A stretch of 51,668 nt of DNA from positions 1-51,668 of the forward strand of contig JAIUMA010000017.1 of assembly GCA_022565795.1 (NCBI GenBank), read 5' to 3'. Within the stretch, counting starts at the first letter, position 1, and each line of letters starts with the position of its first letter. Positions 41,646 through 51,668 of the stretch are shown here, piece after piece. A model generated the notes under the pieces. It made no database searches, was not told where the DNA came from, and saw nothing but the letters and a program-made list of their open reading frames with translations. This DNA comes from Balneolia bacterium. Its GTDB lineage: Bacteria > Bacteroidota > Rhodothermia > Balneolales > Cyclonatronaceae. A program made the position numbers and the translations under genes.

Positions 41646-44012
41646 TTGAGCGTTTTTATTATCCCAAAGGGACAAAGGACTAAAAAGGTATTACAACCAA
41701 AGCTGCTTTATTTTAATAGAGTGGCTTTTGCTGTTCTGGTCCTTTTATGGCTGGCTCCGTGGGGGGAGCCCTCCGTGGTTTATGCAAATGATGCCGATAA
41801 AACTGAGTCTTCCCGAGGTGTGGTAAAAGGTACAGTAATTAATATTGATGAAGACAGCCCCGTCTCAAACGCAGCTATACTCATTGAGGAGCTCGATCGC
41901 GGTACCGTAAGCCACAGAAATGGTGATTTTCAGTTTAGAAATGTTCCGGCAGGTACTTATTTATTAAGGGTACAGCACGTCGGGTATGATACAGGCTATC
42001 AGCAGATTACCGTAACCGCTGGTGACACCACCTTTGTGGAAATAGGCTTGAGGCGTGGCGTAATTCGCTCAGCAGATGTGGTTGTAAGAGACCACTACAT
42101 GCGCGACGACGAGACAACCGGTGTCGAAAGGGTGTTAACCGGAAGACAGCTCAGGCAACAGCTTGGTCAGACCATAGCCGAGACGCTGGAAGATGAGCCG
42201 GGACTTGCACAAAGAAGCATGGGACCCGCACCGGCCCGCCCTGTGCTTCGCGGATTAGGCGGCGACAGGCTGCTAATACTTGAAGACGGCGGAAGAACAG
42301 GAGACCTGTCGGCTACTGCTGCTGACCACGCGCTCGCCATCGAGCCAATGACGGCTGAGCACATTGAGTTAATCAGAGGGCCATCAGCATTGGTGCATGG
42401 TTCTAATACCTTAGGTGGTGTGATTAACGTGATAAGAGGACAAATTCCGATGGATCATCCCGATCATATACACGCCAGCGGCACGCTTCAGGGTCAGTCG
42501 GTTAACAACGGAGTTGCGGGAGGACTAAGGGCATTTGGCCCGATTAGCAGTTCCCTGGCCTACAGAGTGGATGGAAGTGTACGAACCAGCGGAGATATGA
42601 ACACGCCTGAAGGCCGTTTAGGTAACACGGGCATCACAACGCTGAACGCTTCAGCAGGAGTTAGCTATATCCGTGAGTGGGGTATGGTGGGTGTATCAGG
42701 CAACATTCTGGATACCAAATACGGTGTGCCAGGGGGAATTGGAATTGCTGATGCGCATCCTAATGGTGTTGATATCGAAATGTTCCGCCGATACGCGGAA
42801 TTTCGCAGCCGGGTGAATTTTGGACAAGGCTTTTTCCGCAGGCTGGATACCGACGCGACCTACTCGTTCTACAAGCACGATGAGCTGGAGAAGCCAGATT
42901 TTGAAACCAACAGAAGAATTGTCGGTTCGTCTTTTGGTGTGCTTACTACCAATGTTAAGTCACACCTGCATCACAACAGTTTTGGAATTATCGATAAAGG
43001 ACTCATCGGAATATGGGGAGAGCACCGTGATTATGCATCTGGAGCATTTTCTCAAACGCCGGAAACCATAGAGCAGGCCTTTGCAATTTACTCGTTTCAG
43101 GAGGCCAACCCCGGAAACTGGAACCTGCAAGCAGCGCTCAGATTCGACCACAGAACTATTCAGCCACAGGAAGAGCGACTTTCAATACTTATTGGTGATA
43201 TAAGGGAGCGCTCATTCAGCGGCGTTTCAGCTTCTGCCAGAGTTGCATACTTATGGCAGAACAGAATCAAGACCGGCCTCACGGTCATGCGCTCGTTCAG
43301 GGCTCCGGGTATTGAGGAGCTCTACTCTGAAGGGCCTCATCTTGCGAACTTTTCGTATGAAAAAGGAAATCCTGACCTCAATTCAGAAAGCGGGTTCGGC
43401 AGCGAGCTTTTTGTAGATGCCAACTTCAGCAGAGGAAGCATCCGGGCAGCCGTTTACAGAAATCAGATGAACAACTTCATTTTTCCAAGAAATACTGATC
43501 AACGGGCTACCCGCAGAGACGACCTGAACGTTTACAGATACAGCGAGGAACGAGTGCTTATGACCGGCCTTGAATTGAGCGGTAATTTCCGAATTGCTCC
43601 TTCCTGGCAGGTTTCAGGTTCTGTGAATGCCGTTCGCGGTGATTTCATCGCTGACGGAGATTCGTACCCTTTAGCACGATTCGGAAGCTCTGAAATAGCT
43701 GTTCCAATGATGCCCCCGCTCTCGGGTAGGTTAAACGTAGAATGGAGCCGTAACTACCTTGCGTTGGGAGGAACAACCCGCTTTGCCGGTGCTCAGAATC
43801 GACTCGATGAATTTGAAGAACGCACGGCCGGATATATGCTTTTTGATGCCTACGCCCAATACAGCATCACTACAGGCTCCACGCTGCACACCTTTACGCT
43901 GAACGTGGAAAATATTGCCAACACCACCTATAGAAATCACCTGTCACGGATAAAGGAAATTTACCCTGAGCCCGGAACTAACGTTAGTCTGCTTTATCGT
44001 TTTTACTTTTAA
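41646..44012 (+). CDS. TonB-dependent receptor, ZnuD-like (probable metal uptake)
   Basis: 788-residue outer-membrane receptor. Signal segment about 26-48 (cleavage near VVYA-ND), carboxypeptidase-like domain (about 58-140, GTVINIDEDSPVSNAAILIE), plug (about 160-265) with RPVLRGLGGDRLLILEDGGR and IELIRGPSALVHGSNTLGGV, then a 22-strand-type barrel ending in LLYRFYF. The plug wording is close to zinc receptor ZnuD, and the His/Asp-rich PMDHPDHIHA just after it (268-277) fits metal binding. The substrate is therefore probably zinc or another transition metal; not proven. The only in-frame start before the signal is TTG at 41646; no ATG is available. It is the last gene of the lipoprotein locus. 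Confidence 0.88.
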   Translation: MSVFIIPKGQRTKKVLQPKLLYFNRVAFAVLVLLWLAPWGEPSVVYANDADKTESSRGVVKGTVINIDEDSPVSNAAILIEELDRGTVSHRNGDFQFRNVPAGTYLLRVQHVGYDTGYQQITVTAGDTTFVEIGLRRGVIRSADVVVRDHYMRDDETTGVERVLTGRQLRQQLGQTIAETLEDEPGLAQRSMGPAPARPVLRGLGGDRLLILEDGGRTGDLSATAADHALAIEPMTAEHIELIRGPSALVHGSNTLGGVINVIRGQIPMDHPDHIHASGTLQGQSVNNGVAGGLRAFGPISSSLAYRVDGSVRTSGDMNTPEGRLGNTGITTLNASAGVSYIREWGMVGVSGNILDTKYGVPGGIGIADAHPNGVDIEMFRRYAEFRSRVNFGQGFFRRLDTDATYSFYKHDELEKPDFETNRRIVGSSFGVLTTNVKSHLHHNSFGIIDKGLIGIWGEHRDYASGAFSQTPETIEQAFAIYSFQEANPGNWNLQAALRFDHRTIQPQEERLSILIGDIRERSFSGVSASARVAYLWQNRIKTGLTVMRSFRAPGIEELYSEGPHLANFSYEKGNPDLNSESGFGSELFVDANFSRGSIRAAVYRNQMNNFIFPRNTDQRATRRDDLNVYRYSEERVLMTGLELSGNFRIAPSWQVSGSVNAVRGDFIADGDSYPLARFGSSEIAVPMMPPLSGRLNVEWSRNYLALGGTTRFAGAQNRLDEFEERTAGYMLFDAYAQYSITTGSTLHTFTLNVENIANTTYRNHLSRIKEIYPEPGTNVSLLYRFYF

Positions 44013-44046: not shown

Positions 44047-44400
44047 TTAATCGCCGTTATTTTCTCTGTCTTGCTGTATTCTGTGCGCAATCCCGGCAGT
44101 TGCTTCCACATCCATCACAAAAGCAATGCCATGTCCGGGTTCGTTGAGGTCTGTGTTTTTGACAATCTCTTCAAGCACATGATCGGCGCGTTCTGCCGTC
44201 ACAAGCGTTAGAACAATCTCTTTTTCAGGCTCGATAAGCATAGAAAACAGTTTTGCCTTTTCACGGATACCGGTGCCGCGGCCGTAAATAATGGTTCCGC
44301 CTTCAGCGCCGGCTTTTTTTGAGGCCTCAACGACTTTATCGCATGAGCCCTTATCGATGATTGTTACAATCAGTTTAAATTTTTCTGAAGTGTCGACCAT
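44047..44400 (-). CDS. PII-like signalling protein B
   Basis: 117 residues with the ferredoxin-like fold of the PII (GlnB/GlnK) superfamily: KFKLIVTIIDKGSCDKVVEA, then AGAEGGTIIYGRGTG in place of the start of the T-loop, and EPGHGIAFVMDVEATAGI corresponding to the B-loop and final strand. The T-loop is shorter than in GlnB and lacks its uridylylated YRGAEY segment, so glutamine-type control through uridylylation is unlikely. It is the last gene of an operon, 2 bp after a second PII-like gene, behind a DUF1538 transporter-like gene. It likely binds a nucleotide and regulates that membrane protein. A Cys at residue 20 is not shared by its paralogue. Confidence 0.88.
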   Translation of the reverse strand: MVDTSEKFKLIVTIIDKGSCDKVVEASKKAGAEGGTIIYGRGTGIREKAKLFSMLIEPEKEIVLTLVTAERADHVLEEIVKNTDLNEPGHGIAFVMDVEATAGIAHRIQQDRENNGD

Positions 44401-44402
44401 AA

Positions 44403-44744
44403 TTATTCGGCTTGGTTAAGTAAGTGTGCGATTCCTGCTGCTTTGCTCACGTCGAGCAGAAAAGCAATGCCCTGGCCCGGCTCGTCCAGACTTGCCTCAT
44501 CGTTTATGCGATGTAGCATTTTATAGGCCATCTCTTCCTCAACGAGGCTAAAAATAATGTCTTTTTCGGGATCGAATGTGAATCCAAAAAAGGAACCAGC
44601 AGACTCCATACGCGTACCCAGTCCGGGGATGATTGTCCCACCCTGGCAGCCAGCCTGCTTGGTTTTTGCAACCAAATCTGAGCCTTTGCCTTTGTCTACA
44701 ATGGTTATTAGAAGCTTATGTGGCTTTGAAACGCAGTCAGTCAT
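44403..44744 (-). CDS. PII-like signalling protein A
   Basis: 113 residues, same fold as its downstream neighbour: KLLITIVDKGKGSDLVAKTK, GCQGGTIIPGLGTR, and EPGQGIAFLLDVSKAAGI at the B-loop position. The T-loop region (MESAGSFFGFTFDPEKD) differs strongly from that of the paralogue (IREKAKLFSMLIEPEKE), suggesting that the two PII proteins contact different surfaces or report different ligands, possibly as a heterotrimer. It begins 8 bp after the DUF1538 gene ends and ends 2 bp before the next gene, consistent with translational coupling. No uridylylation tyrosine is seen. Confidence 0.88.
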   Translation of the reverse strand: MTDCVSKPHKLLITIVDKGKGSDLVAKTKQAGCQGGTIIPGLGTRMESAGSFFGFTFDPEKDIIFSLVEEEMAYKMLHRINDEASLDEPGQGIAFLLDVSKAAGIAHLLNQAE

Positions 44745-44752
44745 AATCAGAA

Positions 44753-46189
44753 TTATTTGTCTTTTGCTCCATAGAGAATACCCAGAATAAGAACTGCCAG
44801 AATGGGCGTGAGGGCTACTAGTGAAATCATGCCGAAACCCTCAACAAGTGGATCGCTGCCATCTGTAACATTAGAAAAACCAAGCGCAATCGCAACTACA
44901 AAGGTCACTGTCATAGGTCCGGTCGCTACGCCACCGGCATCAAATGCTATTGAAGTAAACTCTCTGCTCGTGAAGTATATCAGCGTGAGTGCAATGATAT
45001 AGCCAGGCAGAACGAGATACATGAGTTCGATGCTGTAGATAATACGAATCATCGCAAGACCGATGGAGAGTGCCACACCGATTGATATAGTGAAAAGCAT
45101 CACTCGCTCCGGAATCGAGCCGCTTGTTACTTTGTCGACTTCCTGAATGAGAACCCGAACAGCAGGTTCTGCAAAGGTCGCTACAAAGCCAAGAAGAATA
45201 CCTATGGGAATTATTATCCAGCTGTTGTCAAGTTCTCCAAGTATAGTTCCCATTTCTGTACCAGCGGGCTGGAATCCAACATGTACACCGTGAAGGAATA
45301 ATGCCATCCCGACCCATGTGAGCACTACGCCTGCAAGCAGCGTCACTACTTTATTGGCTTTCAGCTTCAACATATAAAATTGAAAGAAGATAAAGAAAAG
45401 TACAAGCGGGGTGAGGGCAAATGCGACTTCACCGAGAGTTCCAAGGAAAGTGTAGGATGATTCTCCCTGATCTAGCTCGACATCACTCGGTATGTCATAA
45501 ATGATGCCAAGAAAGAGTACCGCAAGCACGGGCCCGATAGAGGCAAGAGCTACAAGACCGAAACCGTCTTGCGAGCTGGATTTACTTTTTAGTACAGAAG
45601 AAATACCCACGCCGAATGCAATAATGAAGGGAACCGCCATTGGTCCGGTTGTAACACCTCCTGCATCAAAGGAGATAGGTACGAAATTTGGGTCGGAATT
45701 GGGAAGGAATATGATTGTAAATATGAGCGTGTATCCGGCAATCAGAAAATAGTTGATTGACCAGCCTGTAATAATCCTCACCATAGAGAGCGTTACAAAA
45801 ATGGCCAGGCCAAGTGCAACAACAAGAATAAGGCTCGATCTTGGTATGGCACCGCCGGAAGCCTGGTCTACATAACCGGCAAGCACCCAGACGTCAGGTT
45901 CAGCAACGGTTATGGCAAAGCCAAGTATGAAGCTGAACAAAAGTACAATCCATACTTTACCGGTTTTAGGCAAGGCAGATCCAATCATCTCGCCTACGGG
46001 TAACAGACCCATGTGGACACCAATGAGAAACAGAATGAGGCCGCCGGCAACCATGGCCAGACCACTCAGAAAGGCAAAAAAGAACTCGTCGGGTAGAAAA
46101 ATAACCGTGTATTGTAGAAGCACAATTACCGCTGCAATCGGGAAAACAGCCAGGACAACTTCCTTAATTGTGTCTTTTACGAGATCCAT
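44753..46189 (-). CDS. DUF1538 membrane protein with internal duplication
   Basis: 478-residue polytopic membrane protein consisting of two DUF1538 repeats about 242 residues apart. Paired motifs: FLIGVHMGLLPVGEMIG (54-70) with FLHGVHVGFQPAGTEMG (298-314); GFAITVAEPDVWVL (90-103) with GFVATFAEPAVRVL (334-347); FDAGGVTTGPMAVPF (174-188) with FDAGGVATGPMTVTF (416-430). Acidic residues within membrane-like stretches (AEP, FDAGG) suggest cation-coupled transport or a channel. The function of DUF1538 is not established. It is the first gene of the operon with the two PII-like proteins, the usual arrangement for a PII-controlled transporter such as Amt-GlnK or SbtA-SbtB. Confidence 0.92.
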   Translation of the reverse strand: MDLVKDTIKEVVLAVFPIAAVIVLLQYTVIFLPDEFFFAFLSGLAMVAGGLILFLIGVHMGLLPVGEMIGSALPKTGKVWIVLLFSFILGFAITVAEPDVWVLAGYVDQASGGAIPRSSLILVVALGLAIFVTLSMVRIITGWSINYFLIAGYTLIFTIIFLPNSDPNFVPISFDAGGVTTGPMAVPFIIAFGVGISSVLKSKSSSQDGFGLVALASIGPVLAVLFLGIIYDIPSDVELDQGESSYTFLGTLGEVAFALTPLVLFFIFFQFYMLKLKANKVVTLLAGVVLTWVGMALFLHGVHVGFQPAGTEMGTILGELDNSWIIIPIGILLGFVATFAEPAVRVLIQEVDKVTSGSIPERVMLFTISIGVALSIGLAMIRIIYSIELMYLVLPGYIIALTLIYFTSREFTSIAFDAGGVATGPMTVTFVVAIALGFSNVTDGSDPLVEGFGMISLVALTPILAVLILGILYGAKDK

Positions 46190-46213
46190 TCGGTAGATTT
46201 AGTGTGATATTCG

Positions 46214-46269
46214 GTATTTTCAAGCTCTGCATTCTATTTGGAAGCATTGAAAATACAATTTAATTGTAT
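46214..46269. promoter_or_regulatory. Two overlapping perfect palindromes in the divergent DUF1538/IMPase promoter
   Basis: GTATTTTCAA (46214-46223) and TTGAAAATAC (46247-46256) form a 10-bp inverted repeat with 23 nt between. ATACAAT (46253-46259) and ATTGTAT (46263-46269) form a second, 7-bp inverted repeat with spacer TTA. They share bases 46253-46256. The site begins 25 bp upstream of the DUF1538 ATG and ends 58 bp before the IMPase ATG. Confidence 0.55.
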
Positions 46270-46326
46270 GAGGTGGTACTTATTGAGCCAACGAATCCTA
46301 ACTTCTTTTAAGTCCTGAAAATATCT

Positions 46327-47151
46327 ATGGAAAACCGTACAGACCTGCAGATAGCTCATGAAGCAGCTATGAAAGCCTCAGCCGTGATAAAGCACTATGC
46401 AGAAAACAGAGATCAGCTGAATGTTGAGCTCAAAGGAAGACACGATTTGGTTACTCAGGCCGATGTTGAAACCGAAAAAAAGATTGTGGAAATCATTCAG
46501 CACTACCGACCCGATGATGTGATTCTCGGCGAAGAAACCGCTGCACAGCAAAAGCTAACCAATGCGCGCACATGGATTATTGACCCGATTGACGGGACCA
46601 CAAACTTCACGCACGCTTTTCCTGTATTCTGCATTTCTATTGCGCTTTGGGAGAACAAAAGACCCAAAGCTGCTGTCATTTATGAAATAAACTCGGGTGA
46701 GGTATTTACGGCTGAAGAGGGCGGAGGCGCCTTTTTAAATGGTCGACCCATTCGGATATCCGATGCTCAAAAACCGGAAGAGGCGCTTCTCGGTACCGGC
46801 TTCCCGTACCGTGATCTGGAAATAATCGACGACTATCTTGCGCTTCTGAAATGCTTTATGAAAGAAACGCACGGCGTTCGAAGACCCGGCAGCGCGGCCT
46901 ATGATCTGGCGTGTGTCGCAGCCGGACGACTTGACGGTTTCTACGAATATGCACTTTCACCGTGGGATGTAGCTGCAGGCGTGCTGCTGATCCGGGAAGC
47001 CGGGGGCGTTATCGCAGACTGGGATGGCGGTGATGAATGGTTGTTTGGCAAAAGAATTGTTTGCGGCAATGAAGCCATCACCCGATATCTTCTGGACCGT
47101 ATCAAAACCTATATACCGGAGGAGCTCAGAAAAGCCAAGCCACTGAGTTAG
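46327..47151 (+). CDS. suhB: Inositol monophosphatase family protein
   Basis: 274-residue Mg-dependent, Li-sensitive-type phosphatase. The metal sites of the family are present: GEET (68-71), DPIDGTTNF (86-94) and SPWDVAAGVLLIREAGG near 216. It hydrolyses inositol-1-phosphate or related sugar phosphates; bacterial SuhB also has roles in rRNA antitermination in E. coli, not to be assumed here. Full length with a normal start (ATG 46327). It is divergent from the DUF1538 operon and convergent with bshB1, whose stop lies only 9 bp away, with no terminator hairpin evident between. Confidence 0.92.
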   Translation: MENRTDLQIAHEAAMKASAVIKHYAENRDQLNVELKGRHDLVTQADVETEKKIVEIIQHYRPDDVILGEETAAQQKLTNARTWIIDPIDGTTNFTHAFPVFCISIALWENKRPKAAVIYEINSGEVFTAEEGGGAFLNGRPIRISDAQKPEEALLGTGFPYRDLEIIDDYLALLKCFMKETHGVRRPGSAAYDLACVAAGRLDGFYEYALSPWDVAAGVLLIREAGGVIADWDGGDEWLFGKRIVCGNEAITRYLLDRIKTYIPEELRKAKPLS

Positions 47152-51615: not shown

Positions 51616-51668
51616 TACCGCGTACGGGATTCGAACCCGTGCTACCGCCGTGAAAGGGCGGCGTCCTA
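51616..51668 (-). tRNA. tRNA-Glu (UUC), 5' part outside the window
   Basis: Read on the minus strand: anticodon stem CCGCC/GGCGG around the loop CTTTCAC, so the anticodon is TTC (glutamate); then the variable loop, T-stem ACGGG/CCCGT around TTCGAAT, and the 3' acceptor half ACGCGGT with discriminator A. The D-arm and 5' acceptor lie beyond the window end. No CCA is encoded; the bases after the discriminator read CAC. Confidence 0.9.

Follow-up and report, generated by a model that had tools for sequence, protein, structure and literature searches.

A putative DUF1538-family cation:proton antiporter encoded with two PII-like proteins, and the linkage of DUF1538 to PII across genomes

Why should a gene for a DUF1538 membrane protein be followed by two different PII-like genes? 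We asked this of a locus in a 51,668-nucleotide stretch of DNA from a Balneolia bacterium (the window, by which we mean the whole stretch analysed), whose source genome consists of 145 contigs and is 100% complete.

The operon and its products

Three minus-strand ORFs lie head to tail at positions 44047-46189, and their coordinates agree with the tight packing noted in a preliminary description of the sequence, with intergenic gaps of 8 and 2 bp. The first gene (44753..46189, minus strand) encodes a double-repeat DUF1538 membrane protein of 478 aa, as judged from the ORF list, a domain search, an AlphaFold2 model and the Lys+Arg (K+R) bias of its loops. It is followed by P1 (44403..44744, minus strand; 113 aa), a divergent PII-like gene recognised from the ORF list and PII homology, and by P2 (44047..44400, minus strand; 117 aa), the more conserved of the two, recognised from the ORF list and a match to PF00543. 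The flanking genes, a TonB receptor gene (41646-44012, plus strand) and an inositol monophosphatase-like gene (46327-47151, plus strand), are on the opposite strand, so DUF1538-P1-P2 forms a self-contained three-gene unit. The operon promoter is expected in the divergent intergenic region (46190..46326, minus strand), where a single sigma-70-like match (46291-46263, 9/12 positions) is within chance and an Rfam search returned nothing; the sole Rfam match in the window is a partial tRNA truncated by the window end (51616-51668, minus strand). Neither a further DUF1538 gene nor a PF00543 match over the cut-off other than P2 was found in the source genome.

The 478-aa protein contains two DUF1538 domains (PF07556, 468 bits, E 2.7e-141, against a curated cut-off of 22.6), as the preliminary description had read it. 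Repeat 1 covers residues 1-244 (45458..46189, minus strand; domain match 45500-46138) and is predicted to have its N-terminus inside; repeat 2 covers residues 245-478 (domain match 44774..45403, minus strand) and is predicted to be inverted. The protein aligns end to end with both the UmpA and the UmpB model of NCBIfam (NF041627/NF041628; 213.9 and 193.8 bits) and misses their equivalog cut-offs of 490/500 bits by far, as do the PII-linked DUF1538 pairs of Lentibacillus and Methylocystis. UmpA and UmpB are encoded by two adjacent DUF1538 genes of Halomonas zhaodongensis. Together they make an Escherichia coli strain without NhaA, NhaB and ChaA tolerant of salt, lithium and alkali, and they form a pH-dependent antiporter for Na+(Li+,K+) and H+ whose two subunits co-precipitate as a heterodimer (PMC5484666). 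The earlier view of DUF1538 as a family without an established function is therefore outdated. The antiport assignment comes from one paper by one group in one heterologous system, E. coli, and complementation screens by the same group also assigned antiport to several unrelated families. DUF1538 is also listed among features linked to growth pH. Searches for solved relatives of DUF1538 found none by sequence and none by fold, where the best hit (E 0.03, TM about 0.14) is meaningless. From homology, we take the 478-aa protein to be a relative of UmpA/UmpB cation:proton antiporter subunits, with a putative transport activity of its own.

Of the two PII-fold proteins that had been claimed, P2 lies over the PII cut-off (PF00543, 39.9 bits versus 25), whereas P1 lies below it (21.2 bits versus 25, E 3.8e-4) but is 43% identical to P2 (47/110). 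P1 corresponds to the N-terminal half and P2 to the C-terminal half of the fused tandem PIIs of relatives. One such 263-aa tandem protein (L004) carries two Pfam PII domains and models as two PII domains joined by a disordered linker (pLDDT 71), and Foldseek matched the model to many PIIs with probability 1.0. A tree of the PII domains, built to weigh one ancient duplication against several, separates the N halves from the C halves inside each group, with weak support at its deep nodes.

As had been noted, the T-loops are unlike that of GlnB: 14 residues versus 19 in the E. coli protein, in P1, P2 and the family alike. The ATP-phosphate ligands of E. coli GlnB, K90, R101 and R103, are I, G and A in both P1 and P2, and their loss holds across the DUF1538-linked PII family. 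The preliminary description had named PIIs without trimer and ligand-binding features as what would speak against it; this applies in part, in that the canonical ATP-phosphate ligands are missing from both proteins. The 2-oxoglutarate ligand Q39 of GlnB is also replaced, and a Lys aligns with K58 at a place where the alignment can be shifted by one residue. Around the usual ligand cleft, conservation is strong, and stronger in P2 than in P1, for the glycine-rich T-loop base GRGTG, the B-loop PGxGIAF and a charged PEKE motif. Among near relatives, too, P2 is the better conserved protein, which makes it the candidate sensing partner and P1 the candidate diverged partner.

Linkage of DUF1538 and PII across genomes

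Within the window's phylum, 7 of 198 genomes carry DUF1538. The family is commoner in Bacillota, where about a third of the genomes sampled have it (101 of 299 taken around Lentibacillus), and it was present in 16 of 100 genomes around a spirochaete, 15 of these over the cut-off; it also occurs on plasmids. We read the neighbourhoods of 134 distinct loci, selected by DUF1538 alone and covering Bacillota, Spirochaetota, the window's phylum and alphaproteobacterial plasmids. A PII gene lies directly downstream on the same strand at 130 of them, so the conserved association for which the preliminary description proposed a genome survey is present far beyond chance. The two genes are separated by a median of -8 bp, and 116 of the 130 pairs overlap or are within 20 bp of each other; the PLSDB annotation of five plasmid loci agrees with this linkage. 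At the four remaining loci, L088 and L089 are gene or contig fragments, and L011 and L125 carry intact DUF1538 genes.

The arrangement of the two partners varies. Nine loci have a single DUF1538 gene with a single PII. Two separate DUF1538 genes are accompanied by one PII at 22 loci, by a tandem PII at 15 and by two PIIs at 8. Fused DUF1538 genes are found with a tandem PII at 61 loci, plus one irregular case, with two PIIs as in the window at 8, and with a triple PII at 6; L196 would be a seventh by length, with one domain under the threshold. Two different PII proteins thus occur at the window and at some other loci but are not the rule, since a lone PII and a fused tandem are each common among the loci and three domains occur at some. 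A single PII accompanies none of the 76 PII-bearing fused loci versus 22 of the 45 split loci; with only about three switches in the tree, this association of fused DUF1538 with at least two PIIs cannot reach significance and is a pattern only.

The three-PII proteins are about 373-392 aa long (L176:4801-5943, L194, L198, L210, L212 and L214; Pfam assigns three PII domains to the 380-aa product at L176) and adjoin long two-repeat DUF1538 proteins in spirochaetes and in one genome of the window's phylum. It is possible that such a single chain forms a covalent PII pseudotrimer. A three-repeat reading of the long DUF1538 proteins was ruled out: they have two repeats, with inserts that split the match. 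In one spirochaete genome an extra PII gene also lies upstream of the DUF1538-PII pair (L201:358-675).

Three loci (L113, L116 and L126) hold two complete DUF1538-PII operons in direct tandem, and in several Bacillota genomes an RNase P RNA gene lies near the operon (L103, L096, L119, L124 and L130). On alphaproteobacterial plasmids we observed DUF1538-DUF1538-PII cassettes, one on a conjugative plasmid (L041) and one on a mobilizable plasmid (L043); the latter lies between IS66 elements, so the cassette can probably move.

We found no open-licence paper that ties DUF1538 to PII. The parts are of known kinds, whereas that literature appears to contain no description of their combination and how near-universal it is, of the PII fusions or of the inverted-topology series presented below. 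Compared with the preliminary description, the present result is stronger on linkage and symmetry and leaves less open about the function of DUF1538.

Predicted fold and topology

The AlphaFold2 model of the 478-aa protein, built with 14 sequences, is helical and confident (pLDDT 81.5, pTM 0.81). Each repeat has seven helices, of which two are broken. The breaks fall at A96-E97-P98 and F174-D175-A-G-G in repeat 1 and at A340-E341-P342 and F416-D417-A-G-G in repeat 2. The conservation of the acidic residues in these motifs, pointed out earlier for both repeats, holds throughout the family: an acidic residue stands at E97/E341 (AEP) and at D175/D417 (FDAGG) in essentially every one of 237 aligned repeats, and R138/R382 is basic in 97%. 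The Glu and Asp at the broken helices are likely cation/proton sites. Of the ion or anion path that had been suggested, ion translocation is plausible in view of UmpAB, whereas an anion path is without positive evidence.

We counted Lys+Arg in alternate loops of all aligned repeats, with the long insert-bearing type left out. The window protein has a K+R bias of +6 in repeat 1 and -7 in repeat 2. Among fused proteins the mean is +6.9 for the first repeat (positive in 70/70) and -7.7 for the second (negative in 70/70); in two-gene pairs it is +4.8 for the first gene (positive in 43/43) and -5.7 for the second (negative in 45/45). Nine single-repeat genes have a bias of 0.2, ranging from -3 to +3. 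Shifting the loop boundaries did not affect the result. At <60% identity the paired and fused sets form 18-32 clusters and the single-repeat set only 4.

By the positive-inside rule, and on charge alone, we infer that the two repeats of DUF1538 are inverted with respect to each other; the pseudo-twofold symmetry suggested before is supported and sharpened, the repeats having opposite charge topology. The single-repeat genes, with near-zero bias, are dual-topology candidates; they encode seven helices and occur with a single PII (L114, L140 and L169-L175). A series from single-gene dual topology through antiparallel pair to fused repeats is known for DUF606 and EmrE-type proteins (PMC3962082). 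As the helix count is odd (seven), such inverted-repeat genes can fuse directly.

Possible control by PII and comparison with known systems

Two clostridial genomes connect DUF1538-PII operons with c-di-AMP. In each, a c-di-AMP riboswitch (RF00379, above threshold) lies on the same strand upstream of the annotated DUF1538 start, at a distance of 51 bp in one (L156:4549-4696, minus strand) and 19 bp in the other (L111:4471-4598, minus strand); these are 2 of about 100 loci scanned. Of these two genomes, G389 carries only two c-di-AMP riboswitches, the other one lying before the gene of a Na_H_Exchanger protein that has a TrkA_C domain, and G306 carries three, one of them before a Na_H_Exchanger. 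For a genome with ~2 riboswitches and around a thousand transcription units, we estimate that about 0.2 such cases would be expected by chance. This placement ties the operons to cation physiology in a suggestive way. The riboswitch is not conserved before DUF1538 in near relatives of G306 and G389, so the link to c-di-AMP is suggestive only. An Rfam scan found no c-di-AMP riboswitch within the window; the window's genome does encode a diadenylate cyclase domain, which makes c-di-AMP a possible signal there.

Taking these observations together, we favour the reading that the operon encodes an antiporter of the DUF1538/UmpAB family that exchanges monovalent cations (Na+/Li+/K+) for protons, together with cytosolic PII proteins dedicated to its control, and consider it probable; transport, PII binding and ligand are all putative. 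In the 478-aa protein, two 7-helix repeats of inverted topology would be fused into one chain, each supplying two broken helices with one invariant Glu (AEP) and one invariant Asp (FDAGG) that may serve cation and proton. By analogy with GlnK on AmtB and SbtB on SbtA, PII-gated transporters (PMC10710835), the PIIs may bind the cytosolic face of the antiporter and, as dictated by a small-molecule ligand, hold it locked in a single state. They would act as regulators rather than transport subunits, since UmpAB is active in E. coli without any Halomonas PII and PII is thus not needed for transport; the cloned umpAB fragment is described as bearing ORF1-4 only, and the accessible part of the paper makes no mention of PII or of opposite topology (PMC5484666). 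The signal is probably a nucleotide, sensed otherwise than ATP/2-oxoglutarate by GlnB. With the canonical nucleotide ligands lost in P1 and P2, ligand sensing is a guess; our first candidate would be c-di-AMP or an adenine nucleotide that reports salt, K+ or energy state.

Several points count against a PII-gated antiporter: the known PII-gated transporters are trimers whereas an inverted pair is twofold, L011 and L125 have intact DUF1538 genes with no adjacent PII, UmpAB works without PII, the antiport assignment goes back to a single paper, the window protein scores far below the equivalog cut-offs, and the riboswitch is confined to two loci. A different substrate for a PII-gated DUF1538 transporter, such as an anion like bicarbonate, ammonium or an organic ion, with UmpAB antiport as a secondary activity, would fit the established PII partners, which gate ammonium and bicarbonate transporters (PMC10710835), and gains from an antiport claim that comes from one heterologous system and from a fold with no solved relative to fix the mechanism. 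We nevertheless regard this as rather unlikely in view of the direct evidence that UmpAB exchanges Na+, Li+ and K+ for protons (PMC5484666), the riboswitch class common to DUF1538 operons and Na+/H+ exchangers in the same genomes, the listing with growth pH and the conserved paired acidic residues.

That the PIIs serve structure or assembly, for instance by setting the oligomeric state or stabilising the inverted pair, and sense nothing is improbable: loss of the canonical ligand residues and the tendency of PII domain number to track transporter architecture would suit it, but the strong conservation of GRGTG, PGxGIAF and PEKE around the cleft, more marked in P2, suggests a ligand. General nitrogen regulators that merely share the operon would account for PF00543 membership; this explanation is largely contradicted, and very unlikely, because the linkage to DUF1538 spans four phyla, the canonical ATP ligands are missing and P1 and P2 are the only PIIs found in the genome. 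Nothing favours a chance neighbourhood, which adjacency at 130 of 134 loci refutes.

A broader version of the PII-controlled antiporter we put forward only tentatively. The family may have kept antiporters of every inverted-repeat stage, from dual-topology homodimer through antiparallel heterodimer to fusion, with almost obligate PIIs that duplicated and fused along with them as far as a single-chain triple PII. A PII responding to a ligand other than ATP/2-oxoglutarate, possibly c-di-AMP, would then gate a transporter of twofold instead of threefold symmetry and so set the Na+/K+ and pH of the cell. If true, PII control would not stop at nitrogen and carbon uptake but also cover the balance of monovalent cations and pH. 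According to a 2023 review, only transporters able to work as trimers appear to come under PII control (PMC10710835), and a twofold inverted antiporter under PII would test that rule. Through the link to PII, the regulation of salt and pH balance becomes open to direct test. DUF1538 would also be one more of the few families that have single-gene, paired-gene and fused inverted-repeat forms side by side, which bears on a classic question of membrane protein evolution; here the copy number of a soluble partner can be followed in parallel.

Among characterised systems, PstA/DarA, the c-di-AMP-binding PII-like proteins, resemble the PIIs described here in having a PII-like fold without canonical PII ligands and in a connection with c-di-AMP that the riboswitch of two relatives suggests, but are absent from the sequence matches. 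GlnK-AmtB and SbtB-SbtA likewise consist of a PII-fold protein whose gene is linked to one transporter gene. DUF1538 is an unrelated transporter family, predicted to form an inverted pair instead of a trimer, and its PIIs have a T-loop 5 residues shorter, no canonical nucleotide ligands and two or three different domains that are often fused. With UmpA/UmpB, the repeats share the Pfam family, paired homologous 7-helix units and conserved acidic residues, whereas here the units are fused, two PII genes follow and scores are far below the equivalog cut-offs. Compared with EmrE/SMR, Fluc and DUF606, DUF1538 is larger, with seven helices per unit, a linked PII and a topology inferred from charge; as in those families, an unbiased single gene, an oppositely biased pair and fused inverted repeats coexist.
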